From: a virus
DNA: 20,388 nt
Direction: 5' to 3' (one strand)
IMG/VR virus record: IMGVR_UViG_3300045431_000049
Location: 1-20,388 of that record
Shown here: positions 1 through 18,659 of the stretch, one piece after another
How the letters are laid out: every line of letters starts with the position of its first letter
Numbering within the stretch: the stretch's first letter is position 1
Made by a program: the position numbers and the translations under genes
Notes under the pieces: generated by a model
Database searches by the model: none
The model's input: only the letters and a program-made list of their open reading frames with translations
Told to the model about the DNA's origin: nothing

Positions 1-3000
1 GGTAGCGCGCGCACAATGTCTGCGGCGTTTGATACCGTTTGCGCCCTAAACGCGCCGATGGACATCGTGCTCGGATCTCGTTCATACCGAGTGTTGAACA
101 CGAACATGTTCAATGGTGTGTCAAACGCGGGGGTGCCGAACGCCGACATACGACTCAGAGTGGCCAAAAACCAGCGCGCCGGATCTTGCTCGCGCCGGTC
201 AACCTCTTCTCCAGTAATCAGCGACATAGCCATAGGCATAGCTCGTTCGCCGACAGCCATAGCAGCGGCGGCGTACGCAAAAGCAATAGGCGCGTACGTC
301 GACATCGGCGCCAACATCTTAGCTCGATCACTGGCCGACAGATTCTTTTCCGTCACCGCGCGATACGCCGTTTTTGCAGCGTAATTGCGGATCTCACGAG
401 TATATGCATACGGAAACCCGGCCAACGCGTATGCCTGTCGGCCAACAGGATTTTTGGCCAAGTACGGGATCTGGGCAGGGTTGGGCTCCTGAATAGTTCT
501 CATGCTGAAATCGTAGAGTGCCGACCGCAACTTGGTGGCCACCGCAATTCGTCTGCGTACGGCTTCTACTTTCTTCCATTCAGCCGCGCTAACCGCATCG
601 GGTTTAGCGTCTTTCCCTTGCGCCAGCTTAATGAGTTCGGCACTGCCTAGAGTTTCCGCAAGAGACCGCGGATTCGAGATGAGGGCCACGCGGCTATCCG
701 AAGAAGCCCCTTCCATAAGATCATACAGTTTTTTCAACTGGGGTATATCGGCCTCGGTGAAGCCATACTCGCGAAGCAAGTCGAGCGAAGCCGCAGCGCT
801 TTGGCCCTTTACCTGTACATCGGTCGCGGCGTGCTTGAACAGGCCGTCTCCGATTTGTAACGCGTAGGCTCTTTGGCCTTCGGTCAAACTGGTGACGCCT
901 AGCGCGTCCATATACAACGTCGTCATGCGACGAAGCAAAGCGTTGTCCAAGCCATCAAGACGCGATGACACCAGCATGTCACGGGCGTACGACCCCGTCA
1001 CGCCAATCATCTCGGCTAGAGCTTTGTACGTGTGGGCGTCCGGTTTGCGAAGCACGGGCAGGTTCGAGAAAAACCGAAGCTGGTCGACAACCATGAGCGC
1101 CGAACTGATCGGATTTTTGCGCGCGCGAACTCCGATGTTGAAAGGCTCGAACATTTGAAGAATAGCGGTGCGACCGAGAAGACGCATCATGGATAGCGTA
1201 TCAATCAGGGTCAGCGGCGCTCGAATTTCTGCGGGTAGAGGCGAGCCGGTGAGTTGCCCTGTCGCAGCATGAAGTTGGTGCATAATCATGCGCGCTTCGC
1301 CCGACGGAACGTTCTGCGCGAGAAAGCGAGCCAGCGCCTCCAGCCGCTCTCCTTTCTGACCAAACCTTTGCGTGTAGGCGACAAGCTGCCCCATGTTTTC
1401 GGCGTATCGCGCCGTCAACGCGGCTGCGTCTCGGACATAAAAATCGGCCAAGTGTTTGTCTGCGGTCGCGCCGAGAACACGACGCTTGATCGGCGACACC
1501 GCCGTATCGAACGAAAGAACCGGGTTCATCAAGCTACGCGTCTTCGGGAACGCCGCGGCATAGAAGAACTCTTCCGCCGCTTCCATCGCCTCCGTCAACG
1601 ACAGGCCTTCGTCCTGATACGCTTTCGTGGCTTGCTCGATAAACTTGTCTTGGTTGTTGCGGATCAGATCATCGTCCAGCTTCCGGCTGAAATAGTCTTC
1701 CCGCTTGCCGAGTTTGACCCCTGCTTCGGTGACTTCATTCCACACCTGATCGAACCAAGCACGTAACTCGCGGGCATCGGCCCAATCTTGCGCGTCCACG
1801 CCCGGTGGCGCTTTCGCGCGCTCGGACACGGGCATTCGGCTCCAGAGTTTCCCGTCGACCGCAAGCGCCACCACGCGCTTGCTCTTTACGATGTCCCAAT
1901 CGTTGACGAGTTTTCCGATCTTATTTGTCCAAATCCCGGTAAGCTGTTTGGCGTGTTCGGTGTACCCTTGCTCTTGAAGCTTTCCACTTCCGGGGTCTGT
2001 ACCAACTTTGCGAGCGAAAGCGTCAATCGGGTTTTGACCTTCCTCGATACCCAGTTGCTTGGCCCAATCCGCATCCACCTTTGCGCGTAGACTATCCCAG
2101 CGACGCCCCAGAGAGTTGAGCGCGCCGACCGAAGCTTGTGTTGCTGTCCAAGCCATGTTGACGACAGCGTGAGCGGCCCGCGTTGGCGTCATCGTCTTAG
2201 CCCCTTCCTCCAAATCGCGGAAGAAGCGAGCGCGCATCGGATCGTTTTTAAGCTGGTTCTGCATGATCTTGCGGGCTGACGACATCAGCGCACGTCGGCG
2301 CGTAGTAGGCGGCACCGCGCCTTTACGGTCGTCGAGGGCATTGCGCACGAGCCGCACCACCTCGTCGAGCAGGCCGCCCGGGAACGCGTTGAGCTTGCCT
2401 TCCCTTGCGCGGGCAAGCGCGTTGTCGGCCCAGTTTTGGCGCTCTTTGCGCAGATCATCAAGCCGCCGCTGTTCGCCGGGCGTACGGGCCGCTTCGCTCT
2501 GAAGATCGACAAGCGCACGCGCCTTCTCGGGGTTGCGCTTCGCCCATGTGTCGAAAAGTTCGCGCTTCGTGGGTAGAGCGGGCGAAGGCTCGGTCTTTGC
2601 CGCGGGCTGCTCCTTGACCGGCTTGGGAGCGGGCGGCGGGGTCGGCGGTTCAGGCGCAGGTCGACCCTCGCGCTTGGCTTTTCGCACCTCGTTTGCGTAC
2701 GCGCGCTCCTTCGCGACCTGCTTGGCGATGTCCGCGGTGGTCGGCTCGCCGGTCGGGATCCGGTCGCCCTCAAGTGCGTCGAGTTCGCGCTGGAGCCGGG
2801 CCAGCTTTCGCGAATCGCTCAAGTTCAACCGGCCGCCCATTTCCAGTTCTTGGATCTGGGCACGGATCTTTTGCAGGCGGGCTTGGGTGCTGCCCTCCGC
2901 TTCGATGCGATCCGCTTCCGCATCTTGCGCGCGGTTGTCGGGCGTGATCGTGCGTTCGTGGTCCTTGCCGACCCGTTCGATCGTTTCCTTGGGCGCCGCT

Positions 3001-5957
3001 TTTGCCTTTTGCTTCTGCACGTCCTGTTCGCGCAGAGCTTCGAAGCGGGCGAGCAATTCGCGGTCGTACGTTCCAAGTTCAGGCTTCGGGCCGCCGCGGC
3101 CGTCGTCGTCCACGTCGGCCTTGGCCCGCTCGCGACGGACGAGGTTCATGACTTGGTCATCAGACCAGTCCGCATACGCTTTACCCAGCCGGGATCTGCG
3201 CAACACACTCAGCGTTTGTGTGTCCGTCAGCCCGACTTCGGCCGATCGGCGCGCGAACTCACTAATCTTCTGCGCGCGGTTTCGGATGTCCCCGCTCAAA
3301 ACGTAGCGGAGAATCTCGGGGAACGATTTATCCGGCCACGGAACACCCGAGTAGATGATCCGCGGGTCAAAAGGGGTGTCTCCCGACCCTCCCTGAAGAC
3401 GCAGATCCTTTTCGATGCTGTCGACGAGGTTCTTAAGCTGCTTCTCTTTTGCCTGAAGAGCGGCTTTATCCGCGCCGTCCTCGCGCATCTTTTTGATGGC
3501 GTCTCGCAGACTTTCGGCCTGCGTGACCTTTTGTTCAATGAACCGCTTCGGGTCGACATTCGACTTGACGTTCTGCCTCGGCGCCGGGGTGTCGATAGGC
3601 GGTTCGGTGCGACCGCGCAAATCGTTGTTAGGCACCCATTCTTTTCCGGCGTAGCGACGATACGTGTTTTCCACGGCGCGACGGTTCGACGGATCGAGAG
3701 GTTTGCCGCCTCTGGCGCGCACCGCATCGTCTTTGCGCAAGATGTTGCCGAGATCGACAATCTGTTGTTCGCGCCAACGGGTAGCACCCTCTTCGTCCGA
3801 GAAGCGCGGGTCGACGTTAGCACGATCCAACGCTTGACCCGGAGGTACGTCTTTGGCGTCACGAAGGGGTACGGACGACAGGTTGTCCCGGTCGCTTGCC
3901 GCGTCACGATACATGTCGTCAAGCGCGGCTTCCAAACGCGCGCGATCTTCAGCGGGCAGGCGCTTATCGGCGGGCGCCATGTCGTCCTGCGTCAGCCGGT
4001 TTTCGACATCTGCTATATTCGGATCTTCATGTCTGAGCGCCGAGTCCGGGCGTCGACCCAGCGGCGTGTTGCGCGGGTCGAAATCCGGTTCGGGAGGGAT
4101 GGCCGCAGAAACCCGGGCTCCGCGCGCTTGGGCGCCGGACGCCGCGGGCGGGCCGGTCATCTCACTTGGACGATTCAACGCAAACGGGCGACGCTGTGCG
4201 CGATAGCTGTCGGGTTGCGGCGCTTCTGCGCGCGGCCCCGGTTCTGGCGGAAGCGAACGGGGCGCTTCGTCAGCCGGAATGTAGCGCATCTGCGGCGCTT
4301 CGACATCATCGGTCAAAGCCGCGCGGAAAGCGGCGATAGCCTCGCGAGCGCGAGAAATTCGATCTTGTCGTTCAGGAGTTTGGGGCTTGGCTTCCATTGC
4401 CGACACTTGGCGCTCAAGCTCGCGAATTTGTATCGCCCAGCTAGGTTCGTCCGTCTCGAATGCGGAAGCACGAACGTTAGGCGGTGGATCGCTAGGGGAC
4501 GGTTCCGGGTTGTCGACACGCTGACCGAAACGACGCGGGGGCTCGTCGGCTTCAAACTGGGCGTACCTCGGGCGCTGCGGCTGTGTGTCGCCATAGGTCG
4601 CGGGCGGCGGGGTGCGCGGGTCGAAGCTCTGGTCAATCGGGAGGTCGTAGCCTGACGGCGGTGGTCGCCGACGATCACTTGGGCTTTCAACCGGCGCTTG
4701 CGATCCTTGGTCAATCGTTCGCTGGTATGCGTTCTCGGGGCGAACGTAGCCGCTACTGTCGTTGAGCGGAATGGGCTTGCCACCGGGCACCAAAGTTGTC
4801 GGTGTTCGGCGGACTTCGACGAAGTTGCCCTTCGGCGCCGTGCGCGGCTTTGCTTTTGTCGGCTGACCGCGCTCGTTGACCGGCTGGTACAGGTCTTCGC
4901 CTTTTTCGTTCTTGCCAGCAGGCTTGTAGAACGTGGTGACTTCGTTGCCATTCTTGTCAGTACGGGTGTGTTGATACAGAGGCGCGACCTCTTGCCGAGA
5001 CGTGCGCGTGGGGCTGGCCGGGGGTACGCTGGGCGCCGGAAGCGCGAGACGTTCGTTGGGCGCCGGAAGCGCAGGTTGAACTTCGGGCACGGCGGCTTCG
5101 GGTTGCGGACGAACGCCGCCGCGACCACCAAGGAACGCCGATGCGAGCGCGCCTATGGCAGCATCAGTGCCACGCGCGGACGGGTTCAGCGGATCACGGA
5201 GCGCGGCCTCTGCCGAGTATCCTTCTGCACTGAGTTGTCGCGATACCGCCAGATCTGCGGCGCCGCCCACACCCGTGTTGACTGCCGCGCCCTGAACTAC
5301 GCGCTTGATTAGACCGCCGCTTCCCGGCGCAATCATGTTACCTGCGGCGCTGATACCGGCGTCGAGAACCGCTGAACGACCCGCCGTTTCGGGAGCGACG
5401 CCGCGCTCGCGAAGTTGCGCGCCCGTGTCGGCGCCTTGGATAGCCCCTGCGGTAAGACCACCGCCAATCGGACCCGCGGCGAAAGATGGCGCGACGCGGC
5501 CCAAACCATAAGCCACGTTGTCGAGCACCGACCCGCCTTCCGGCGCCGGAAGAACTTGACGATTGAACTCGTCATAATCGCTGAGCTTCGAAATCTGACG
5601 TTGGCGCTGGCGCGTCTCCCACGTCGCCATCTCTTGCGAGTTAAAGCCTTTCCAGACAGGGGGCGGATCAAATGCACTGGTGTCCGTGACCGCTTGCTCA
5701 ACGGCTTTCGCGCCCGAAGTGAAGAACGACGCAAGACCGCGCGCGAGATTAGTCGGCACACTGAGCAAATCATCCTTCTGCGTGACGGGCACACCCCGTC
5801 CCACAGCGGGCGTGTTATCGGGCGCGGTCTGCGCTCCGAACACATCGTCGTAGCTAAACCCGTTCTGCTGCGGATAGGTAACGTAGTCTTTCGGGTTTGG
5901 CCCGAAAACCTCGTCGTACGAGTATCCTGATTGTTTTTTCTGCGGTTCGCGAGCCAT
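1..5957 (-). CDS. Giant virion/ejection protein, 5' part (no stop in window)
   Basis: One frame is open from ATG 5957 to the left edge: 1985 codons with no stop, so the protein is at least about 200 kDa and incomplete. The start follows TAGGA by seven bases. Visible regions: residues 11-41 hold two copies of Gly-aromatic-Ser-Tyr-Asp-Asp/Glu-Val-Phe-Gly. Residues about 146-230 form a Gly/Ala-rich hydrophobic part (VAPSFAAGPIGGGLTAG; LIKRVVQGAAVNTG). About 283-650 is Pro-rich and disordered, with repeated LALPAP and FDPR. About 1015-1065 is a Lys/Arg/Glu/Leu coiled coil. About 1120-1150 is Pro/Lys-rich. From about 1230 the protein is a helical globular part, with a hydrophobic stretch YAPIAFAYAAAAMAV near 1887. 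Position matches T7 gp16 or N4-type giant ejected proteins. I see no lysozyme, RNA polymerase, helicase or protease signature; the missing end could hold one. Confidence 0.85.
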   Translation of the reverse strand, partial: MAREPQKKQSGYSYDEVFGPNPKDYVTYPQQNGFSYDDVFGAQTAPDNTPAVGRGVPVTQKDDLLSVPTNLARGLASFFTSGAKAVEQAVTDTSAFDPPPVWKGFNSQEMATWETRQRQRQISKLSDYDEFNRQVLPAPEGGSVLDNVAYGLGRVAPSFAAGPIGGGLTAGAIQGADTGAQLRERGVAPETAGRSAVLDAGISAAGNMIAPGSGGLIKRVVQGAAVNTGVGGAADLAVSRQLSAEGYSAEAALRDPLNPSARGTDAAIGALASAFLGGRGGVRPQPEAAVPEVQPALPAPNERLALPAPSVPPASPTRTSRQEVAPLYQHTRTDKNGNEVTTFYKPAGKNEKGEDLYQPVNERGQPTKAKPRTAPKGNFVEVRRTPTTLVPGGKPIPLNDSSGYVRPENAYQRTIDQGSQAPVESPSDRRRPPPSGYDLPIDQSFDPRTPPPATYGDTQPQRPRYAQFEADEPPRRFGQRVDNPEPSPSDPPPNVRASAFETDEPSWAIQIRELERQVSAMEAKPQTPERQDRISRAREAIAAFRAALTDDVEAPQMRYIPADEAPRSLPPEPGPRAEAPQPDSYRAQRRPFALNRPSEMTGPPAASGAQARGARVSAAIPPEPDFDPRNTPLGRRPDSALRHEDPNIADVENRLTQDDMAPADKRLPAEDRARLEAALDDMYRDAASDRDNLSSVPLRDAKDVPPGQALDRANVDPRFSDEEGATRWREQQIVDLGNILRKDDAVRARGGKPLDPSNRRAVENTYRRYAGKEWVPNNDLRGRTEPPIDTPAPRQNVKSNVDPKRFIEQKVTQAESLRDAIKKMREDGADKAALQAKEKQLKNLVDSIEKDLRLQGGSGDTPFDPRIIYSGVPWPDKSFPEILRYVLSGDIRNRAQKISEFARRSAEVGLTDTQTLSVLRRSRLGKAYADWSDDQVMNLVRRERAKADVDDDGRGGPKPELGTYDRELLARFEALREQDVQKQKAKAAPKETIERVGKDHERTITPDNRAQDAEADRIEAEGSTQARLQKIRAQIQELEMGGRLNLSDSRKLARLQRELDALEGDRIPTGEPTTADIAKQVAKERAYANEVRKAKREGRPAPEPPTPPPAPKPVKEQPAAKTEPSPALPTKRELFDTWAKRNPEKARALVDLQSEAARTPGEQRRLDDLRKERQNWADNALARAREGKLNAFPGGLLDEVVRLVRNALDDRKGAVPPTTRRRALMSSARKIMQNQLKNDPMRARFFRDLEEGAKTMTPTRAAHAVVNMAWTATQASVGALNSLGRRWDSLRAKVDADWAKQLGIEEGQNPIDAFARKVGTDPGSGKLQEQGYTEHAKQLTGIWTNKIGKLVNDWDIVKSKRVVALAVDGKLWSRMPVSERAKAPPGVDAQDWADARELRAWFDQVWNEVTEAGVKLGKREDYFSRKLDDDLIRNNQDKFIEQATKAYQDEGLSLTEAMEAAEEFFYAAAFPKTRSLMNPVLSFDTAVSPIKRRVLGATADKHLADFYVRDAAALTARYAENMGQLVAYTQRFGQKGERLEALARFLAQNVPSGEARMIMHQLHAATGQLTGSPLPAEIRAPLTLIDTLSMMRLLGRTAILQMFEPFNIGVRARKNPISSALMVVDQLRFFSNLPVLRKPDAHTYKALAEMIGVTGSYARDMLVSSRLDGLDNALLRRMTTLYMDALGVTSLTEGQRAYALQIGDGLFKHAATDVQVKGQSAAASLDLLREYGFTEADIPQLKKLYDLMEGASSDSRVALISNPRSLAETLGSAELIKLAQGKDAKPDAVSAAEWKKVEAVRRRIAVATKLRSALYDFSMRTIQEPNPAQIPYLAKNPVGRQAYALAGFPYAYTREIRNYAAKTAYRAVTEKNLSASDRAKMLAPMSTYAPIAFAYAAAAMAVGERAMPMAMSLITGEEVDRREQDPARWFLATLSRMSAFGTPAFDTPLNMFVFNTRYERDPSTMSIGAFRAQTVSNAADIVRAL
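5030..5072. repeat. Direct repeat inside the giant gene (LALPAP units)
   Basis: TGGGCGCCGGAAGCGC occurs at 5030-5045 and again at 5057-5072 on the plus strand, 27 bases apart. It encodes two successive Leu-Pro-Ala-Pro units in the Pro-rich region of the giant protein. The spacing is a multiple of three, so the repeat preserves frame and looks like a small in-frame duplication. A partial third copy of the core (GGCGCCGGAAG) is near 5542-5552. Confidence 0.75.
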
Positions 5958-5966
5958 TTTGTTGTC

Positions 5967-7208
5967 CTATTGAGGAGCCGAACCAACTGGATAAAGGCGA
6001 CCGTTTCGAACCACCATCGGACCCCTTTTTGTTGGTATTTCCTGGCCCTCTAGCTGCCCAGACTCAACTTGCTCTTTGGTCGGCGCGCGAACTGGGTTTG
6101 GCAGGCTATCGACGCCGTCATCACTAGATGACGTGCCCACCGTGTTTTGCGGCCCGTTGTTGATGAAGTAATCGGCCAGACCGCGAGCAAGGGGCAAGCC
6201 CGCCGTGGTGTCTACGCCGACACCTTTGATGTTTGCCTTGCGCGGATCAATGACCCATTCTTTGCCGTTCCACTTGCGCCCGTTTATAACTCGCGCGGCG
6301 GCTTGGTAGCCTGCGTCGCGAGATGGCATTCCGTCAACAATGAATCGTTGCGCTACCGCGAGAGCCCGCTTGTATTCTTCTGACGCCAGCATGGCTCTTG
6401 TAGAAGGATCATTGTACCATTTTTGATACTCAAGTTCGTTGGCGCCTCGGTTTATGTTTAACTCAGCTTCGACCGCTCGTCGCGCTTCATCTGCTGCTTT
6501 AACGTTGTCTGTAGGATTCAAAGGTCTGCTGGCTAGCGCGGCTTTCTCCCGGGCTCGCGCGTCGGCAGCTTCAGCCTGAAGCGCGGCGATCTGCTCGCGG
6601 CTATCGGCGTTGATGCGCGCCGCGCCAAGCGTGCCTTCAAGCTGTTTGTCTTGACCGCGCTTCGCGACATCGGTCGTGACCTGCAACGCCGTATTGCGAT
6701 CCGACTCAGTGACCGACTCGTTCGGGGCCAGCGATTGATTTGAGTAGATCGGATACACGTTGGTCAGGAAGCGGTTTGCCGCTGGCCCTTCTTCGCCCGC
6801 AAAATTAAGCGCAATCATGCGAGCAAGATCGGTCGGGTTAACCCCCGCCGACATTGCCGACGAAGTCAATTCTCGTGCCGCGTAATCGGGGCTTCCATAC
6901 CCGTTCGGCTTGGGATCCATCTCCCCCGCCGCCTTCATGTCCGGCGAGAACACGTAGCCCAGCCTATACGCCAGTTCACGCTGGGCGTTTTGGCGCGCGC
7001 CAATCTCGTTGGCTTCAGCTTGCGCTTTCGCTGCTTGTGCGCGGAACAGGTCGTTCTGGGCGCGCTGATCCCCCATCTTGCCGATGCTATCGACAATGCC
7101 GGTGAACGCCCCCGAAAGACGCGACACCATTGACTCAGGATCGCGCCTAGCGACGTAGCCAGGTACGACGCGCTGTAGGACCGGACTTTGCTGGACATAC
7201 TGGGGCAT
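5967..7208 (-). CDS. Probable internal virion protein, unrecognised
   Basis: A 413-residue protein, last of the medium-sized genes before the giant one. The N-terminal 40 residues are amphipathic (VLQRVVPGYVARRDPESMVSR then LSGAFTGIVDSIGKMG). Residues about 45-85 form an Ala/Gln helix (FRAQAAKAQAEANEIGARQN). The middle is a mixed globular part (ARMIALNFAGEEGPAANRFLTNVYP) and another Ala/Glu coiled coil follows (EQIAALQAEAADARAREKAA). The C-terminus is a small strand-like unit with RGPMVVRNGRLYPVG. By order it corresponds to T7 gp15, but I see no motif proving homology. AGGAA eight bases before the ATG supports the start. The TAG stop lies nine bases before the start of the giant gene and forms part of that gene's likely ribosome-binding site. 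Confidence 0.7.
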   Translation of the reverse strand: MPQYVQQSPVLQRVVPGYVARRDPESMVSRLSGAFTGIVDSIGKMGDQRAQNDLFRAQAAKAQAEANEIGARQNAQRELAYRLGYVFSPDMKAAGEMDPKPNGYGSPDYAARELTSSAMSAGVNPTDLARMIALNFAGEEGPAANRFLTNVYPIYSNQSLAPNESVTESDRNTALQVTTDVAKRGQDKQLEGTLGAARINADSREQIAALQAEAADARAREKAALASRPLNPTDNVKAADEARRAVEAELNINRGANELEYQKWYNDPSTRAMLASEEYKRALAVAQRFIVDGMPSRDAGYQAAARVINGRKWNGKEWVIDPRKANIKGVGVDTTAGLPLARGLADYFINNGPQNTVGTSSSDDGVDSLPNPVRAPTKEQVESGQLEGQEIPTKRGPMVVRNGRLYPVGSAPQ

Positions 7209-7217
7209 GGTCGTTTC

Positions 7218-8684
7218 CTAGATACGGAACTGCGGCGGCGTGGTGATAACCGGCGTAGTGGCGGGCATGACCGCCGACGGCGTGTACTGGTTGAACTTGG
7301 GCGTGCTGTTGATAGTCGTCATCGCGGAATTAGCGTTGAATGTTCTGGGCATCGCGCTCGCCAACGCCGCGCCAAGGTCGAGGACTTTGGCGCCTGTTTG
7401 CATCCAGTTGCCGGTGGCGCTTGTGCCATTGATGCGCCTATCGTAAATGTTGCCCATGTTGGCTAAATAACTGTCGTTAACGTTCGTTACGGTATTGCCA
7501 TATCCCGTGATGGCGTCGAGCTTCGCCTTCAACTGGTCGTTCGCTGTGTTCGCCGTTCCCGTAAAGTAATCCGCTAGGGCCGCGCCTTCTTCAGCGAACA
7601 GATTGCCACGGGTAATGCCGTCTTGGACAATCTTGTTGACTTGTGCGTTGCCTACGGTTCTGACGTTGTCCCCGCGGGCGCCGTAGAACTCATCCGTAAA
7701 GTTCAGGTTGGCGTCTGTCACGCCTTGAGTGTAGTCTTTGTCTATGTTTCCTAACGCGGCAACATTTGCTCCTCGCGCGGCGGCTTCCATATTGTTCGCG
7801 CCGTAGACAAGCGGCAAATCAGCCGCGTCAAGTTGCGCGATCGTCTTAAGAGTTCCTACGCCCAAGTCGACATCGTTGCGTCGGACATCGTTGACAAACG
7901 ACGCGTCGCCGTAGGCTCGGAGCTTGTTATCTGTGACCGCTGCGTCTACGGCCCGGGCCAGCCCTTGTCGGTTTCTACGTTCGAACTCGTTGCGTACAAG
8001 ATTGCTCGACCTCGGCGAACTTTGATCGAACGTCGTGATGTTAAGAGCGTCGGCGAGCGTGTCGTTCCGTCGAGCCTCGCCAACACCAAGATTTGTCTCG
8101 TAACGACCTCGTCCTAAAGATCCTATATATTCTTCGGCGATGTCATCTGCATATTCTTGAAACGCGTATTGCCTGTCTTGTCGAGGACGAAACGCGCTAA
8201 GGTTTTTATCGCGCCGCGCGTTTTCAAGATTGGCTTGTTCGATGGCGGCACTAAGATCGATCTTACCTAGATCCACCGCGTTTTTATTTTTCAAAATCTC
8301 TGCGTTTTTTCGACCTTGCAGGCCGATGACGTTTAGCCGGTCCAACTGATCCAGCTTAGCGTTTAGCGACGTGACATTCGTGTCTAGTACATTGCGAGCG
8401 GTTTTTACTGCGGACGCATTTGCCGCGCCTGCCGCCGCCCGGCCCAAAATGTCGTTGATGTTGACTGTGTCGCGCGCGATCCCCTCTTGTTTTCCTCGAA
8501 CATCGGCGTTCACTTTGCGGTTGTCATCAAATAACGGGCGCTGAAACGCGCCTGCAAATTCATTCGACAACTGCTCTTTAACTCGCTCCGCTTTTTTCGC
8601 GTCTTTACTTTGCTTAGCGTTTCCCGCCAATCCAAGTATTTTGGACCCGACTGTTGCGATTGCGGCAATAGTGAGCGGATCCAT
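7218..8684 (-). CDS. Probable internal virion (ejection) protein with N-terminal hydrophobic segment
   Basis: A 488-residue protein whose N-terminus (DPLTIAAIATVGSKILGLAG) is a short hydrophobic, Gly/Ala-rich segment that could insert in or cross a membrane. It is followed by a basic helix (KQSKDAKKAERVKEQL). The rest is polar and helical with many Asn, Asp and Ala, including repeated Asn-Val/Asn-Leu-Asn patterns. The C-terminus is Pro/Thr-rich (AVMPATTPVITTPPQFRI). A short hydrophobic N-terminus ahead of a long soluble helical body is common in phage ejection proteins such as T7 gp14. The start is ATG 8684 within TGATG; an in-frame GTG three bases upstream is also possible. Function is inferred from order and composition. 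Confidence 0.7.
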   Translation of the reverse strand: MDPLTIAAIATVGSKILGLAGNAKQSKDAKKAERVKEQLSNEFAGAFQRPLFDDNRKVNADVRGKQEGIARDTVNINDILGRAAAGAANASAVKTARNVLDTNVTSLNAKLDQLDRLNVIGLQGRKNAEILKNKNAVDLGKIDLSAAIEQANLENARRDKNLSAFRPRQDRQYAFQEYADDIAEEYIGSLGRGRYETNLGVGEARRNDTLADALNITTFDQSSPRSSNLVRNEFERRNRQGLARAVDAAVTDNKLRAYGDASFVNDVRRNDVDLGVGTLKTIAQLDAADLPLVYGANNMEAAARGANVAALGNIDKDYTQGVTDANLNFTDEFYGARGDNVRTVGNAQVNKIVQDGITRGNLFAEEGAALADYFTGTANTANDQLKAKLDAITGYGNTVTNVNDSYLANMGNIYDRRINGTSATGNWMQTGAKVLDLGAALASAMPRTFNANSAMTTINSTPKFNQYTPSAVMPATTPVITTPPQFRI

Positions 8685-9700
8685 CACGCCACCGTATAAG
8701 CTGAATTAGACGACGAAGGGGTGTACCCGCCCGCGCGCGAGAACGTCGTAGCGGGGCGCCGCACGTTGGCCAGCGCGTCGCGGAAACCAGACAACGCGTC
8801 GGGCAGCGAGTTTGGATTGGGCGCGCGGTAATTGTTGACGTTGTCTTTGATGCCCCGCGTGACATCGTTAATCCGCGTGCTTATGTTCTTCAGACCTGAA
8901 TCCGCGTCCAACCCGTCGGGCAGGCTTTGGCCCGTATCTGCCGCGTTAAAGACACTGGCCAGCGCATCGTTACGCTGGCGCAGGATGTCGGCCTGCAACG
9001 ACCGAGAGCCTTCTTCTGCTTTAGCCGCCACGCCCGCTTGAGCCTCCGCTTTGGCTTCGGTAAGTTCTCCGAACGACCTGGCTGCGGCGGACGAGTTGAG
9101 ATTCGCGTTGTCTGCGAACTTGAGCGTCATATCCCGAGATGCATCCCCGAAACTCTTTTCGAGTTTTGGCGCGTAGTACGCGAGGAACTTGTCTTTGAAG
9201 TCTTGGTAAAACGAGTCATCAAACTGACGAAAAGTGTCGTCGATCGTTCCCTTAGCTTCCGTGATAAACTTCTGCCGACCCTCATTGTACCGACGCACTT
9301 CCGCCGCGCGAGCCGCCGCCTGCGCAGCCGCCGCCATCTGCGAAGAGAACTGCGCTTGCTGGGCTTGCCGCTGTTGTTCGCGCAACTCGTTCAGCGTTCG
9401 CATTTGCGCGCTTTGCTGGAACGAAGCAAAATTCATCGCGTCGGCGAGCGCTTTGGCCGCCGCGTCTCGCTGCATCTGAACTGATGTCGCGTTGGCGTCA
9501 TTTGTCTGCGTTGCGATGTTCGTCGCGGTGGCAACTCGATCTTTTAGAAGATCTTCAATTCGTCGCGCTTCGATAGCCGCTTGTTCGTCCGCAAGCCTGC
9601 GCTGAAGCTCCAGAACCGCGGCAGCGTCCTGTTTGTTCAGTTCAAACTGACGAGAAGCTTCTTCTTGCTGTGTCGTCATCAAGGGCGAGTCAATAGCCAT
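8684..9700 (-). CDS. Probable internal virion (ejection) protein, coiled-coil
   Basis: A 338-residue protein. Residues about 10-150 are almost pure Ala/Gln/Glu/Arg helix (for example LNELREQQRQAQQAQF and MAAAAQAAARAAEVRRY), predicted to form a long coiled coil. An aromatic middle (RQFDDSFYQDFKDKFLAYYAP) and a Ser/Pro C-terminus follow. No signal peptide or membrane segment is visible. It is the first gene after the nozzle, the position of T7 gp13/gp14, and is followed by two further helix-rich genes and a giant one, which together resemble an ejectosome cassette. Sequence families of such proteins diverge fast, so I rely on position and composition. It starts at ATG 9700 with a weak GGAA upstream; its TGA overlaps the next ATG. 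Confidence 0.72.
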   Translation of the reverse strand: MAIDSPLMTTQQEEASRQFELNKQDAAAVLELQRRLADEQAAIEARRIEDLLKDRVATATNIATQTNDANATSVQMQRDAAAKALADAMNFASFQQSAQMRTLNELREQQRQAQQAQFSSQMAAAAQAAARAAEVRRYNEGRQKFITEAKGTIDDTFRQFDDSFYQDFKDKFLAYYAPKLEKSFGDASRDMTLKFADNANLNSSAAARSFGELTEAKAEAQAGVAAKAEEGSRSLQADILRQRNDALASVFNAADTGQSLPDGLDADSGLKNISTRINDVTRGIKDNVNNYRAPNPNSLPDALSGFRDALANVRRPATTFSRAGGYTPSSSNSAYTVA

Positions 9701-9705
9701 GTGAC

Positions 9706-11430
9706 TTATTCCGACAAGTTTCGGTCAAAGTGAATGACGACACTTACCAAACGCTTGTATCCCGAACCTCGTCCGATGAACTCAAGCGTCGGATTAGTCT
9801 GCCAGCCAATCGTGGGCACGGCGGGGGCGTCGAACGTAGGCTCGAACAGGATCGACGCTCGTTCGGTCGCGCTTTCAGTTAGGTCATACGCTTGGCGTAC
9901 TTCCCACTCCCCGATGACCCCGAAGTCAAATCCCGTTACGTCTTTGAATGTCGCGGGCGCTCCCGCGGAAAGATTGGCCAATCTAATGCGTGGCACCGTC
10001 GAGTCGTAAACGTCTCCGGTCAGTCCACCATAGATGTATACCGTATTTCCCGACCGAACCCAAACACGATCATTGCAGATGCAAGCGTCATCCGCGGTAA
10101 AGCCCAAGATGTATTCCGACCACCCATACACACGCGTAGCGGTAAACCGCGTTAGGACATAGGCCCGGTCAGAGAGGAAGCACAAGAAGCGATTGTCTAC
10201 AGGTTCCACAATCGATATCGCGTTAGCAATCGTATCCGCGCTCATCGCAGCCATGCGCGGGATAAGAAGTTCGTCGATCTGCGACCCAACCTCGTCCACC
10301 AGCGCGTAGTTGGCGAGTGTCGAGGATGGCTGAAGTGCGCGAAGCCCCTTGCGATCGAGGAACATAAGCCCGGTGTCGCCGAAGGGGCGAACCGACTTCG
10401 GCGAACGAGTGCCGTAGTTCTGAATGGTTTGCTTACGCGTGTTTTGCGTGTCGTCGGCGGCAACGTCCCAGATCTGGATGTTTGTGTCGGTGAACAGCGC
10501 TAAGTCCGCGATGTACACGCCCACGCCCGTAAGATCCGCCGCGCCTGATGTGTGGTTCGATATTTCGACAAAACCCGCGCCGGGATAGTCAGGGTTCCAT
10601 TGAACAGGCGTCAGTACCGAAGAAAAATGCAGACGCGGCCCCGACAACGCGTACATCTTCGCGTCGTGCGTAAGGACCGTTTTGCCGGGCACGTACGATC
10701 CTACGTCTGCTTGACCGTTAGCTACCGGGGTCGGCGCGCTTGTCGTCATGCCACCGCTAACCGCGATCACAACTATGGATCCGTTTTGGCTATCGCCTAC
10801 CGATTGGTCCGCGATAAGATTGACCGTTTGATTGATCGCAGTGGCCGCAAATTCCGGGCTCGATGCAAATGCTGAAATGGTGCTGGCGATGGCGGTTGCT
10901 GTGGCCGAATTAGATGTCGCCCAACTAACAGTTGACCCTAGTATCTCAATACCGTTGACTTTGATCGAAGTTACCGATCCTGTCGTTCCTGTCACATCAA
11001 ACGATGCTCGGGCGCGACCGTCGGCCCAAGCTGCGACCCGGGCTCCGTCATAGTAGTGATGTGTTGAGCCGTCGGCGAATGTTACCGACAGATACAGCTT
11101 TCCGTCGTAAACATCCCACGAGTTGATCTTGCTAATCGCCGAGCCAGCATCGGTCGGATGAACGATCTTTTGATATCCGAACACCGCATCCAGACTAGTA
11201 GGTCGATCAACAATGCCGAACACGAAGGGTACATTGTTTACTGTCGCAAGCCCCACCGTTTGCGCCGGGGGAAGCGTGTACTGCTGGACAAACGCCTTTC
11301 GCACTTCCCAATCGCCGCCGCGCGTCAGATGCACGTTCTCGGCTACCGAAGCGGATCCGCTCGGTAGAGCCCATTCGGGCTTTCGCAAGTCTAATCCACC
11401 TGCGAACCGATCAACGACAAAATAAGGCAT
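9706..11430 (-). CDS. Tail nozzle / tail tubular protein B-like
   Basis: Forms the distal short tail tube below the adaptor. The 574-residue product begins with the typical nozzle signature: a FAGGLDLRKPEWALPSGSA segment and then ENVHLTRGGDWEVRKAF (about residues 9-47). The rest is strand-rich with repeated aromatic strands (YIADLALFTDTNIQIWDV; GLMFLDRKGLRALQPS; DNRFLCFLSDRAYVLTRF; DRVWVRSGNTVYIYGG) as expected of a beta-propeller like T7 gp12 or P22 gp10. A Thr/Ser/Ala-rich domain at about 142-232 (VTSIKVNGIEILGSTVSWAT onward) looks inserted into the propeller. The ATG overlaps the upstream stop as TGATG and has no clear Shine-Dalgarno, so translation is probably coupled. Assignment by motif and gene order is strong. 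Confidence 0.85.
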   Translation of the reverse strand: MPYFVVDRFAGGLDLRKPEWALPSGSASVAENVHLTRGGDWEVRKAFVQQYTLPPAQTVGLATVNNVPFVFGIVDRPTSLDAVFGYQKIVHPTDAGSAISKINSWDVYDGKLYLSVTFADGSTHHYYDGARVAAWADGRARASFDVTGTTGSVTSIKVNGIEILGSTVSWATSNSATATAIASTISAFASSPEFAATAINQTVNLIADQSVGDSQNGSIVVIAVSGGMTTSAPTPVANGQADVGSYVPGKTVLTHDAKMYALSGPRLHFSSVLTPVQWNPDYPGAGFVEISNHTSGAADLTGVGVYIADLALFTDTNIQIWDVAADDTQNTRKQTIQNYGTRSPKSVRPFGDTGLMFLDRKGLRALQPSSTLANYALVDEVGSQIDELLIPRMAAMSADTIANAISIVEPVDNRFLCFLSDRAYVLTRFTATRVYGWSEYILGFTADDACICNDRVWVRSGNTVYIYGGLTGDVYDSTVPRIRLANLSAGAPATFKDVTGFDFGVIGEWEVRQAYDLTESATERASILFEPTFDAPAVPTIGWQTNPTLEFIGRGSGYKRLVSVVIHFDRNLSE

Positions 11431-11975
11431 CAGCTATACGGAGTGTCCAATTCTAGGCGGCACGACACACGCAAACCCGACGAGGGCGCAGTAAAACCGT
11501 TGGCTGTCCACAAAAGACCGAACAGTCCTTCGTCTGGACGATTGGATCCCGAGATGGCCCGGTCTAGCCTTATCGGAATGTCGAACTGGTTGGCCCCGCC
11601 TGCGTGAAGAGACGCGTACGCTGAATTTGCCGCAGCAAAAGTCGTTTGGCTTGACAAGCGAGCGATCCATCCAGGCTCAACACTACCTGACGACGCCACA
11701 ACAGCGTACGCCCCGTTATCCCCGGCTGTCACCGCAGGGCGATAACGAAATAGGTCTAGCGTGAACGCGGCGTTGGCTACGCTAACTCCCGTGGCTTCAA
11801 CCGTCAGCAACGCGCGACGCAACCACCCTGCCCGGGTATCTTTGAAGTTGCCGTCAAAAAGAAAATCCATTGGGGTGACACTGGCCGCCGTAGTGCTGTC
11901 AGCGACAAGATCGTTGTTTCCGTACGGCGTCGCGCCCGATGCAGTCTGGAACACGGCTGGGATAGCGAGGAGCAT
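11430..11975 (-). CDS. Beta-rich phage structural protein, role unknown
   Basis: A 181-residue, low-charge protein with alternating strand-like segments. It contains the pattern YGNNDLVADSTTAASVTPMDF near the N-terminus (about residues 18-38), then RRALLTVEATG, FTLDLFRYRP and RVSCRLELDTPYS at the end. I recall similar 'D-L-V-A-x-S-T-T-A-x-S-V-T-P' proteins in many phages, annotated as hypothetical or structural with a likely jelly-roll fold. That is family memory, not a proven function. It sits between the adaptor and the nozzle, three bases after the former and sharing one base with the latter (TGATG). CAGGA lies seven bases before the ATG. It may decorate the tail or the head vertex. Confidence 0.7.
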   Translation of the reverse strand: MLLAIPAVFQTASGATPYGNNDLVADSTTAASVTPMDFLFDGNFKDTRAGWLRRALLTVEATGVSVANAAFTLDLFRYRPAVTAGDNGAYAVVASSGSVEPGWIARLSSQTTFAAANSAYASLHAGGANQFDIPIRLDRAISGSNRPDEGLFGLLWTANGFTAPSSGLRVSCRLELDTPYS

Positions 11976-11978
11976 AGC

Positions 11979-12686
11979 TTAATCCTGTTTGGCGGTAAGA
12001 ATGCGTTGCGTTGGGTCTCGGGGGTCAAGCTCTTTGGGTTCGTCGCCAAGTTTGACGACCGTTCCCGACATCTGGTTAGATTTCAGCATGGCAAGATGCT
12101 TCTCGGCGTCCGCCCGCATCATCATCGCCTGCTTAGGGTCTCGGCGGCTCATCAGTTTAGCCCCGGCCATCATGACGAGCAGCACGCTGTCCAACATGCA
12201 GATGTCAGTGTCGAGCACCAATGGGGTAAGCTTGCGCTTGCCGGTGAAGCGAATGGTCATCGTTGACGCTGGAGTCGGCCATATCTCGAACTGATCTTCC
12301 GTGTGCGGTTCCCAACGCTGAGGCGGATCGGCCTGTGCCCCGGCGTCCGAGTTGTACGAAGTGTAAAGCTCAGGGGTGATCCCGCGCACCAGAGGCAACC
12401 AGACGTTTCCCCATCGCACGTACACCCGCCGAACGTTGTCGTACGAGATGTCTACCGGGTAGTCGTAGTACCGCTGGCCAGCGGCGGTCGACTTGTCGAA
12501 GAAGCCGTTGGCCAGCGTGCCTATCAGATGGGGCCAATCAAATTCAGCGTAGAGACGTTCTTGCTCCATCCGAATCGAATGCGCCACGTTGGCCCGAAAA
12601 TTTTGGCCCAGCGCCGGGTTGGAACTCAGCGCCGTCTCTAGCTGTACCGCTTCGATAAGCTGGCTTAGAGGGACGCCGAGCGCCAT
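11979..12686 (-). CDS. Head-tail adaptor (tail tubular protein A / gp4-like)
   Basis: Connects the portal to the tail nozzle and seals the packaged head. The 235-residue product opens with a helical region and the motif RMEQERLYAEFDWPHL (about residues 39-54). This matches the Arg-x-x-x-Glu-Arg-Leu...Asp-Trp-Pro-x-Leu signature I associate with podovirus adaptor proteins. Strand-rich segments follow (YYDYPVDISYDNVRRVYVRWG; FEIWPTPASTMTIRFTGKR). It ends in a helical tail with a Met-rich part (DPKQAMMMRADAEKHLAML) and a polar C-terminus. The order adaptor then nozzle matches T7 gp11-gp12, here with one extra gene between them. AAGGAG seven bases before the ATG is a strong ribosome-binding site and fixes the start. 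Family assignment is from motif memory and context. Confidence 0.8.
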   Translation of the reverse strand: MALGVPLSQLIEAVQLETALSSNPALGQNFRANVAHSIRMEQERLYAEFDWPHLIGTLANGFFDKSTAAGQRYYDYPVDISYDNVRRVYVRWGNVWLPLVRGITPELYTSYNSDAGAQADPPQRWEPHTEDQFEIWPTPASTMTIRFTGKRKLTPLVLDTDICMLDSVLLVMMAGAKLMSRRDPKQAMMMRADAEKHLAMLKSNQMSGTVVKLGDEPKELDPRDPTQRILTAKQD

Positions 12687-12697
12687 CGTCTAACTCC

Positions 12698-13306
12698 TTA
12701 TCCAAAAGCGTCGGCGAGACTTTCGGAAGCTGACTTTCCCTTGGCGGGGCGGCCTCGCTTCTTCGGCGTCGGCGTAACTGGCGGTGCAGTTTCCAGAGCC
12801 CGTGTTTCTTCATTGTCCGCGTCGAACTCCTCGTCGAATGCGTCGATTTCGGATTCGCCAAACGTCTCTTGTTCGCCCGCCTGTTCTTCCAGCCTGCGTG
12901 CGGCTTCTTCTGCGGCGGCGCGCAAACGACGAGCTTCCTCGCGCGGATTGATACCAATGTCGGCCAAGCGTTTTGGTAGAGGAGAGAACGGGCCAAAAAG
13001 GCGAGCGACTGTGCCCGACGTTTCGTCCATCGGACCCGAAGCGCCTTCATATTCAACGATCAAACGCTCGCGCTCGCGCTCGTCCATCCACTCCCCGCAA
13101 GGCTCGACGCCCTCGATGACAACACCTGGCTTGCCTTTGGGATCGGACGATCGGGCGTCGTACGTGTACAAGGGGCGAATATCGAGAACTGCGTCTTCGC
13201 CGTGCAAGAACTTGAGTACTCGGATTTCGGGCACGGTCACGAGTTTGTTCGTCACGGTATGCTGGGTCGACCCAGCTACGCGGACAGTGCAAGTGCAGTA
13301 AAGCAA
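12698..13306 (-). CDS. Acidic structural-module protein with AT-hook-like C-terminus
   Basis: Not recognised as a named family. From the TTG at 13306 the product has 202 residues. It begins with a beta-like part (VRVAGSTQHTVTNKLVTVPE) and has a central segment ending PLPKRLADIGINPREEARRL. A helix of alternating Ala, Glu and Arg runs through AAAEEAARRLEEQAG, followed by a strongly acidic stretch (SEIDAFDEEFDADNEE). The basic tail KKRGRPAKGK resembles an AT-hook (Gly-Arg-Pro core flanked by basic residues). The same frame stays open far upstream, but that part is an Arg/Ser-rich shadow of the decoration gene. Position between decoration protein and adaptor suggests a head-completion or minor structural role; DNA binding is speculation from the tail motif. 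The stop overlaps the ribosome-binding site of the next gene. Confidence 0.75.
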   Translation of the reverse strand: MLYCTCTVRVAGSTQHTVTNKLVTVPEIRVLKFLHGEDAVLDIRPLYTYDARSSDPKGKPGVVIEGVEPCGEWMDERERERLIVEYEGASGPMDETSGTVARLFGPFSPLPKRLADIGINPREEARRLRAAAEEAARRLEEQAGEQETFGESEIDAFDEEFDADNEETRALETAPPVTPTPKKRGRPAKGKSASESLADAFG

Positions 13307-13313
13307 AACATTG

Positions 13314-13318
13314 CCTCC
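13314..13318 (-). promoter_or_regulatory. Ribosome-binding site selecting a TTG start
   Basis: GGAGG on the minus strand, seven bases before TTG 13306. A second GGGAGG lies 10 bases further upstream. No in-frame ATG exists near here, so this site decides the start of the 202-residue gene downstream. Confidence 0.65.
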
Positions 13319-13333
13319 ATAGCCTCCCAAGGT

Positions 13334-13376
13334 GAACCGCGCGCATGGGGGAGGCGCTTTCCCGTGCGCGCGGTTC
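13334..13376 (-). other. Perfect 12-bp inverted repeat (RNA hairpin) after the capsid genes
   Basis: The arms GAACCGCGCGCA (13334-13345 as written on the plus strand) and TGCGCGCGGTTC (13365-13376) are perfect reverse complements around a 19-base loop. The loop itself holds a smaller GGGA/TCCC pairing on the transcript. It lies in the largest gap of the operon (76 bases), just after the decoration-like gene and just before the next gene's ribosome-binding site. There is no T-run after the stem on the minus strand, so it is not a standard intrinsic terminator. A role as a partial terminator, RNase processing site or 3'-end protector that sets capsid mRNA above tail mRNA is inference. Confidence 0.7.
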
Positions 13377-13382
13377 TCTCGG

Positions 13383-14354
13383 TCAGCTCCCGAATTGCGG
13401 GTTGCCGAGATACCAAGGCTCGCCGCCAGCGACGACAAGCGTATATGTGCGTGAACCATCAGGAACGTTGGCTGCGTTCGTGTTAGGAGCGAACGTGCCG
13501 CGAACGTCAGCGGTCGTTGCCGTTGACACCGTGCTGGACGCCAGACCAGCAACCGTCGTGGGCGCGTTAGACGGCGCGGCGCCATCTTGCAGCGTGTACA
13601 GAACGGCGCCGATGTGACCGATCCAGAACGGCAGTCCGAAGACCGCGCCCCAGCCGCACGAGATGTTGCCCGCGCACGCCGCGTCGACCGAGATCGAAGT
13701 GATAGACGCGAACGCCTTGATCCCCGCAACCGTGGCCGCGTTGACGCCTGTGATCGTTTCGATGACCGTCGAACCGTACTCGTCAACTCCCGTGATCGTG
13801 AACACGCGAGCCGTGTCGACACCTGACGAAGTGATCGTCACGTTGCGCGGAACGTCGAACACCAGAGCCGCGGTGATAAGCGTCAGAGCGCCGCCGACGC
13901 CGACCGCAGCCGCTGCACGAAGACCTGCTGAGTTAGTCGCCGTGGGGTTACGAATGCGAACGCTGACCAGTTCCATCGGGGCGAGTCGGCGAACCGGAAT
14001 TGGGGTCAAGCCGCGAGCGCCTTGGATCGAAGCCCCGGTGCCGGGAACACCGACGGCAACGTACTGCCGGTTTTCCAGATTCGAGTTGCCCAGAATTTCA
14101 AGCTCAAGCCTGAAAACCGAACCCGCGGGTAGCGTACCCGCGCGACGCCACGTGACCGTCACGTTGGTTGCGTTCAGCGTAACGCCAAAATCGACGGGGC
14201 AATTCACCAGCGTTTGATTGACGTAACCACGATGCTGCGCGCCATCGACAAAGTCACCCCGGGAAAAACCCGTCGGATAAGGAACGGTGAAGGTACCAGA
14301 AGTCGCGACTGCCGTAGCAAGCGTGGCGACCGCACCAGAAGAAGCGTAAGACAT
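13383..14354 (-). CDS. Capsid-associated (decoration-like) structural protein
   Basis: A 323-residue beta-rich protein immediately after the capsid gene, probably a head surface or head-stabilising protein. It is poor in charged residues and full of Thr, Val, Ala, Gly and Ser. Its second half contains a recurring phage-structural pattern: a strand pair around VFTITGVDEYGSTVIETITG, then AFASITSISVD, then GWGAVFGLPFWIG. I know this TITG / SITSISV / GLP pattern from proteins encoded beside capsid genes in many phages, usually annotated only as structural. The start is well supported by GGAGG five bases before the ATG, one of the best ribosome-binding sites in the window, implying high expression as expected for a capsomer-stoichiometric protein. 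The gene ends seven bases before the right arm of a strong hairpin. Confidence 0.72.
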   Translation of the reverse strand: MSYASSGAVATLATAVATSGTFTVPYPTGFSRGDFVDGAQHRGYVNQTLVNCPVDFGVTLNATNVTVTWRRAGTLPAGSVFRLELEILGNSNLENRQYVAVGVPGTGASIQGARGLTPIPVRRLAPMELVSVRIRNPTATNSAGLRAAAAVGVGGALTLITAALVFDVPRNVTITSSGVDTARVFTITGVDEYGSTVIETITGVNAATVAGIKAFASITSISVDAACAGNISCGWGAVFGLPFWIGHIGAVLYTLQDGAAPSNAPTTVAGLASSTVSTATTADVRGTFAPNTNAANVPDGSRTYTLVVAGGEPWYLGNPQFGS

Positions 14355-14366: not shown

Positions 14367-15425
14367 TTACGACACGGTCGGGTTGATTTCGTACACGCCG
14401 TGGCAGTTGAGTTGGTTGAAAACCAACGCGCCGGTGAACGTGACGCCGCGATAAAGAACGTACTTTTCAGGCGGGCGCGCAGGCGAATGCTTTTTCATAT
14501 CTTCGCCTTGCATCGCCATCAGCATGATCCGACGCGGGTCGAGAATGTAGGCAAAGTTTTGCAGACCCAGGTCGTCAAGAGAGGGGTCGTACTGAACCTT
14601 GCCAACGCCGCGCATGGAGATGTCGGCAATGCCGATCGACGTCGCGCCCGATTTCTCGAAGCCTTCCAGCGTAAAGTTACCTTTTGCCGTGATTTCGGTT
14701 TCGAGCACGTCGATAAAGTTTGAACCCGCAAGGAAGAGAGTCGGGCGTCCACCGTAACGGCGAAGCTGACGCACTTCACGGCGCAGGGTTTGAATGAGCG
14801 TGCTGTTCGAGCGCGACGGGTTGATGCGGTTGCCGCCGACAAGCGAACGGTTCCGCCACCACGGATTGAGCGCTCGGTCGATACCGCCCACAACGCCCGT
14901 AGTCGGGTCGAGAGAAATGGCTGATTGGATTCCGCCAAACACCTTCGACGACTGCGTGCCGTCGCGCCAGAGGATCGAGTTGAAGGACCGCGCCATGCCC
15001 TCGTCCATATCCTCAAGCTTGTCTTGCATGAGGTTCGAGATTTCGAGCATTTCGCGGTCGGACACTTCCGACGTGTTTTCGCCCGTCGTCGTGTCGAGAA
15101 CCGTGATCCCGTTACGCTTCAGTTCGGTCATCGTAAGCGACATACCGGCGTGCAGTTCGCGCCACGGAAACGTGAACTGACGCATTTTAGCGGGGTTGGT
15201 GTAAACAACCGTGTCGTCGCTGTCGAAGCCCATGAACGTCGTGACGTACTCGGCTTTGACGTTGCCTTTGATTTCGCCTTTGCCGCCCGGGAAAGTTTTC
15301 TTACCCGACGTCATCGCCGAAAGAAGCGGCTTGTCTTGAATCGTTTGCGAGAGCGGTTGGCCCCGCAGATAGTGGTCGAGCGTCGCGTTCGCGATGTTTT
15401 CGACCTGTTCCATAGTCAACGGCAT
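14367..15425 (-). CDS. Major capsid protein
   Basis: Forms the icosahedral shell; an HK97-type fold is expected from family knowledge and context, not seen directly. The 352-residue product starts MPLTMEQVENIANATLDHYL and has a long basic and Gly-rich early loop (KKTFPGGKGEIKGN, about 42-55) followed by aromatic-rich strands (TFPWRELHAGMSLTMTELKR). Next is an acidic helix (MLEISNLMQDKLEDMDEGMA) and a C-terminal part with DPRRIMLMAMQGEDMKK and YVLYRGVTFTGALVFNQL. No N-terminal protease-like extension is present, consistent with a separate scaffold. AGGGA lies about 10 bases before the ATG. It is preceded by a 63-base gap, the second longest in the operon, and followed 12 bases later by a decoration-like gene. 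Length and position fit podovirus capsid proteins. Confidence 0.88.
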   Translation of the reverse strand: MPLTMEQVENIANATLDHYLRGQPLSQTIQDKPLLSAMTSGKKTFPGGKGEIKGNVKAEYVTTFMGFDSDDTVVYTNPAKMRQFTFPWRELHAGMSLTMTELKRNGITVLDTTTGENTSEVSDREMLEISNLMQDKLEDMDEGMARSFNSILWRDGTQSSKVFGGIQSAISLDPTTGVVGGIDRALNPWWRNRSLVGGNRINPSRSNSTLIQTLRREVRQLRRYGGRPTLFLAGSNFIDVLETEITAKGNFTLEGFEKSGATSIGIADISMRGVGKVQYDPSLDDLGLQNFAYILDPRRIMLMAMQGEDMKKHSPARPPEKYVLYRGVTFTGALVFNQLNCHGVYEINPTVS

Positions 15426-18657: not shown

Positions 18658-18659
18658 GA

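Follow-up and report, generated by a model that had tools for sequence, protein, structure and literature searches.

The window analysed here, i.e., the whole stretch of 20,388 bases, is an entire viral IMG/VR record (IMGVR_UViG_3300045431_000049) from a short-tailed phage. Its minus strand carries genes in the order: large terminase (18660–20222), portal protein (16576–18666), scaffold-like protein, major capsid protein (14367–15425), SU10-type adaptor (11979–12686), nozzle-like tail protein (9706–11430), three helical proteins and a giant protein (3–5957). The homologous genes of related phages stand in identical order. The terminase was assigned from PHROGs and Pfam matches and the portal from a PHROGs match, in both cases together with synteny with the relatives, the adaptor from its match to PF24175 (E 1.1e-10), and the nozzle-like protein from homology to the syntenic gene of the relatives (in Microcystis phage Mae-Yong1326-1, the homologue is annotated as 'packaged DNA stabilization protein'). 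Relatives encode, at the equivalent position, a protein that shares the C-terminal half of the first helical protein (8684–9700). The second (7218–8687) and the third (5967–7208) are presumed to be ejection proteins from their position, the latter between the nozzle and the giant gene. In the part of the genome seen to the right of the record edge, the giant gene is the last and largest of this nozzle and ejection-protein cluster. The order nozzle, three helical proteins and giant protein, proposed in the first-pass annotation, is thus supported by the adaptor match and the syntenic homologues, and the place of the giant gene is as in podoviral ejectosome operons. The largest, tetrameric ejection proteins of podoviruses (T7 gp16, phiKMV gp37 and PhiM1 gp48) occupy the same position, after the nozzle and the smaller ejection genes.

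Another open reading frame of the window, 12698–13822, overlaps the gene of a 323-aa protein (13383–14354) and is conserved in relatives only in its second half (from about residue 155–180), so the gene probably begins some way into the frame as listed.

The giant frame starts with the ATG at 5957 and is free of stops down to base 3, where the edge of the record itself cuts the 3′ end of the gene, leaving 1985 codons (1985 aa) visible. That this frame stays open to the window edge had been noted before, and its length is far above what was obtained by shuffling the same DNA, where the longest stop-free run had a mean of 177 codons and a maximum of 306 (200 trials). In complete relatives the stop is found some 30–95 residues past the edge, and by extrapolation from them the full protein would be of about 2,020–2,080 aa. 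No Pfam-A domain at E ≤ 1 and no NCBIfam domain were recognized in the giant protein, and its PHROGs matches were to unannotated families only, the best of them with E 1.6e-11 at residues 149–275. The earlier statement that it contains no recognisable enzyme domain holds therefore for these three collections.

A tblastn search of 50,697 phage records with the giant protein as direct query gave no match, and a search of IMG/VR for loci related to its C-terminus gave none, so relatives were reached through the major capsid protein used as query. The capsid matches were Mae-Yong1326-1 (44% identical), Rhizobium phage RHph_N65, 80 IMG/VR contigs and 13 contigs of bacterial genomes, several of them alphaproteobacterial. 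In Mae-Yong1326-1 and at least nine more contigs, a giant protein of 1787–2807 aa is encoded at the same position by a single intact frame. RHph_N65, in which nothing matched the giant protein of the window, codes at that position (8757–11569) for a protein of 708 aa and, in a separate gene after it, for an M15 peptidase, an arrangement that suggests a split cargo. In IMGVR_UViG_3300021430_000557 (L012), the giant protein is encoded by two overlapping ORFs in different frames (4554–6995 and 6983–10216), which could reflect a sequencing error, a programmed frameshift or a real split. In IMGVR_UViG_3300027833_000109 (L149), the start of the giant protein (2493–2800) resembles by eye a muramidase-type domain, on which Pfam reports nothing. 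A copy of the C-terminal domain occurs in Vibrio hannami (NZ_JARQZP010000010, G047:C10:23702-25072) in three short frames, one of them with internal stops, apparently as part of a decayed prophage.

The last ca. 700 residues of the related giants are homologous to each other (blastp E values down to 2e-28 in a small set). A profile constructed from ten relatives, with the window protein left out, recovered its residues 1325–1984 with 198.6 bits and E 9e-57 (Z=1e6), whereas none of 2000 shuffled sequences and no reversed protein was reported. This conserved C-terminal region (residues 1280–1985; 3–2120) is common to the giants of related phages and, as extended by tblastn from the relatives, to proteins of KPP25, tf, JB8, PaP3/LUZ24-like phages and Aeromonas phage phiA008. 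The loose alignments of the family contained no stretch conserved enough for scanning. Many members are annotated as 'virion structural' or 'phage particle' proteins, including those of LUZ24, PaP3, tf (gp51) and KPP25. The tf-type proteins are a short form (about 1,020–1,050 aa) without the ca. 980-residue middle of the window protein, while the KPP25 protein has a middle that differs from it in sequence. Concerning presence in the particle, nine virion proteins of LUZ24 were identified by ESI-MS/MS, seven of them with tf homologues (PMC3517423), and the LUZ24 protein that matches a 1054-aa relative is named 'phage particle protein' (PMC3890496). Since neither source names the gene among the nine, it is likely, but by an indirect route, that the LUZ24 member was one of the proteins detected.

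The relationship of this C-terminal family to T7 gp16 was apparent in two kinds of comparison. In hhalign, the family profile matched the profile of T7 gp16, SP6 gp37 and phiKMV gp37 with 95.8% and E 7.8e-9 over about 310 colinear columns, which set residues 1503–1856 of the window protein (390–1451) against residues 788–1120 of T7 gp16. The alignment ends where the family motif P-x-G-R-x-x-Y-x-L-x-S-F faces 'ALGKMVMQFKSF' of T7, and a second, partly overlapping alignment (91.7%) kept the register unchanged. The same procedure gave only 0.05% with gp15, 0.12% with the portal and 0.16% with the C-terminus of N4 virion RNA polymerase. The window sequence alone aligned to gp16 in the same register at E 0.083, below significance, so the link to gp16 rests on the family profile, and the window protein shares it by virtue of its clear membership of the family. 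Sequence searches of the PDB with the window protein, with tf gp51 and with the family profile gave nothing meaningful.

The second comparison was of folds. The AlphaFold2 model of residues 1280–1985 was built on 11 sequences, contains helices only and is weak (mean pLDDT 53.6, pTM 0.33). Plain Foldseek of this model against the PDB gave nothing significant, and the gp16-type matches came from a second aligner. With the latter, the best three of the 692 PDB chains aligned were gp16-type ejection proteins: PhiM1 gp48 (Z 10.6, 247 residues, rmsd 5.3), T7 gp16 (Z 8.8, 238 residues, rmsd 6.9) and Gp29 of phage E1004 (Z 6.8, 228 residues, rmsd 7.0), with unrelated chains next at Z 4.1. The aligner itself cautions that helical folds can give non-specific matches at Z values below about 13. 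The part superposing on PhiM1 gp48 comprises residues 1309–1567 (1257–2033), and the superposition on T7 gp16 extends further. In BFVD, the model matched LPD proteins, the KPP25 structural protein and internal virion proteins of VP2, BB8, RSB3 and JG068. Taken together, the profile and fold comparisons give good support to the interpretation that the C-terminal region of the family is a distant relative of the C-terminal half of T7 gp16, PhiM1 gp48 and phiKMV gp37. The first-pass annotation had seen no motif of N4 virion RNA polymerase, of the T7 gp16 transglycosylase or of methylase/helicase polyvalent proteins. This stands as far as no enzyme or transglycosylase was found, but the annotation is incomplete as to the last ca. 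700 residues, whose relation to gp16 is visible only by profile or fold comparison.

Outside the C-terminal region, the window protein differs from T7 gp16 (1318 aa) in being about 700 residues longer, in having a long linker-like middle and in lacking the N-terminal lytic transglycosylase, of which no trace was found in Pfam or in the profile of the N-terminal segment compared to gp16. The latter difference is not disqualifying for a gp16-type protein, since P22 gp16 is also devoid of transglycosylase (PMC8954989). The Gly/Ala-rich N-terminal segment (residues 149–275; 5133–5513) matched phrog_14422 (with the best E value given above), phrog_1145 and phrog_11561, all of them unannotated. As its profile comparisons with gp16 and with the corresponding segments of tf, JB8 and phiA008 were negative, no shared N-terminal domain is claimed. 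Two predicted transmembrane helices are a feature of T7 gp16-type ejection proteins. In the window protein, no 19-residue stretch of the visible 1985 residues, in which the C-terminus is incomplete, had a mean hydropathy above 1.4, the cut-off applied for a membrane helix on a simple scale, so the hydrophobic segments mentioned in the first-pass annotation found little support as far as membrane helices are concerned.

The middle region (residues 300–1279; 2121–5060) is unique to the window protein and consists of Pro-rich linkers of low hydropathy and isolated helices. Hydropathy was low in 18 of the 19 blocks of 50 residues between positions 301 and 1250, where Pro-rich stretches occur, and a single-sequence model of residues 680–1279 was a string of separate helices with no strand (pTM 0.23), two of the helical stretches (approximately residues 720–768 and 803–855) being predicted at pLDDT 80–90. 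The disordered and coiled-coil segments described earlier were thus borne out for residues ca. 300–1250. Matches of the middle to CsoR/FrmR-like folds (Z about 8 over 55–63 residues) look like generic helical hairpins and were set aside. No relative of this region was detected among the phages compared, its blastp comparison with the middles of the relatives giving no match below E 0.5. It matched no enzyme-named family in Pfam, PHROGs or NCBIfam and had no HExxH, SleB or Walker A motif.

The relatives carry differing modules at this position, all of them typical of polyvalent proteins, namely the peptidoglycan hydrolase SleB, DdrB-ParB, LPD1 and metallopeptidase-like HExxH motifs. ORF38 of Mae-Yong1326-1 (2441 aa), of the same lineage, gene position and C-terminal family as the window protein, displays in its middle LPD1 and two HExxH motifs, of which the window protein has none. 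DdrB-ParB, LPD1 and metallopeptidase modules are those of the polyvalent proteins described by Iyer et al. 2017 (PMC5512222). Several relatives by C-terminal family carry DdrB-ParB and LPD1, and four (L132, L136, L154 and L155) have two or more polyvalent-type domains, while three (L131, L133 and L138) are, like the window protein, without any recognised domain. LPD38, listed as phage-only in the same work (PMC5512222), was absent from the Pfam hits of all the relatives scanned. The suggestion that the giant could be a large polyvalent protein is therefore correct for relatives that share its C-terminus, but the window protein itself contains zero recognised enzymatic, DNA-binding or LPD domains in PHROGs, Pfam and NCBIfam, as compared to the two or more that define a polyvalent protein.

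Considering these results together, the giant is probably the counterpart of gp16 in the DNA ejectosome of this phage, enlarged in the manner of polyvalent proteins but carrying no known enzyme. Gene order, C-terminal family and gp16 comparison all support the original reading of a giant ejectosome-type protein that closes the nozzle and helical-protein operon without a recognisable enzyme. T7 gp16 tops the internal core and unfolds on exit, and its C-terminal part is thought to be a hub at the inner membrane and in the cytoplasm (PMC8954989, PMC11440229). By analogy, the giant would be stored inside the head as an internal virion protein and would exit via the tail, together with the three smaller helical proteins. 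Its C-terminal ca. 700 residues would be placed over the portal within the head, lose their fold for passage of the tail and regain it at the inner membrane or beyond, forming a hub for DNA entry. Membrane contact may be made by the Gly/Ala-rich N-terminal segment, and the ca. 980-residue middle could be a flexible tether that threads easily, at the place where relatives carry exchangeable cargo. The analysis shows the open frame, its place in the operon, the family to which the C-terminus belongs, the resemblance to gp16 in profile and fold and the turnover of cargo among relatives, whereas presence in the virion, ejection, the passage of the membrane and the function of the middle are inferred.

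Other explanations have to be weighed against this one. It is rather unlikely, though worth consideration, that residues 300–1279 hide an enzyme or effector too diverged for Pfam, which would make the giant a true polyvalent protein delivering a new activity with the DNA. The recognised modules of relatives at the same position (SleB, LPD1 with HExxH, DdrB-ParB) and the two well-predicted helical stretches speak in its favour, but the lack of enzyme-named matches and motifs, the low hydropathy, the model without strands and the three relatives likewise devoid of recognised domains argue against it. In a related but separate proposal, to which we give a similarly low chance, the middle would be a functional cargo, e.g., a helical array binding DNA or host proteins, carried by the gp16-type domain, so that the gp16 C-terminus would be a general delivery module with interchangeable payloads. 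An internal scaffold or core protein of the head, which stays in the virion instead of being ejected and resembles gp16 by a common helical arrangement, seems unlikely. It would agree with the annotation of family members only as 'virion structural protein', with the PHROGs placement of the family under head and packaging and with the low confidence of the C-terminal model, but two different methods pointed specifically to gp16 with negative controls, and the gene is at the end of the ejection operon, like gp16.

It is very improbable that the long frame results from misassembly or from the joining of separate genes. Although in L012 this protein is divided between two overlapping ORFs (1077 and 813 aa), the single intact frame of at least nine other relatives and the GC content by codon position, alike throughout the giant gene, speak against it. 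Finally, N4 virion RNA polymerase (gp50) is likewise a giant ejected protein with a similar genomic position, and the size of the window protein and its place as last gene of the ejection cluster would suit an N4-type polymerase with a diverged catalytic domain. This is extremely improbable, as the middle showed no similarity to gp50 (BLASTP E 0.82), the C-terminus gave the mentioned 0.16% with the C-terminal domain of N4/LUZ7, and no polymerase family was matched in PHROGs, Pfam or NCBIfam. The parts tested thus have no detectable sequence relation to gp50, in agreement with the first-pass annotation, which saw no motif of that polymerase.

Each of the three kinds of protein brought together here was already known, whether ejection proteins, LUZ24-like structural proteins or polyvalent proteins. 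What looks new is the same gp16-type C-terminus on proteins with exchangeable polyvalent modules, the window protein being an enlarged version without recognised cargo, and no paper making the link was found among the top open-access literature results. The finding joins two subjects usually treated separately, the gp16-type protein that the podoviral ejectosome has at the inner membrane and the giant polyvalent phage proteins with exchangeable enzymes. If the C-terminal domain is a delivery module, the cargo position of the giants is a place to seek activities injected with phage DNA, and many 'virion structural protein' annotations of LUZ24-like phages gain a testable function.

Two minor observations concern Mae-Yong1326-1. 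Its ORF38 (OP028995.1, L006, 23089–30414) is annotated as 'peptidoglycan transglycosylase', while Pfam shows LPD1 and no transglycosylase. The podovirus-type adaptor, nozzle and ejection genes of this phage do not fit its published 340-nm flexible tail (PMC9503304).
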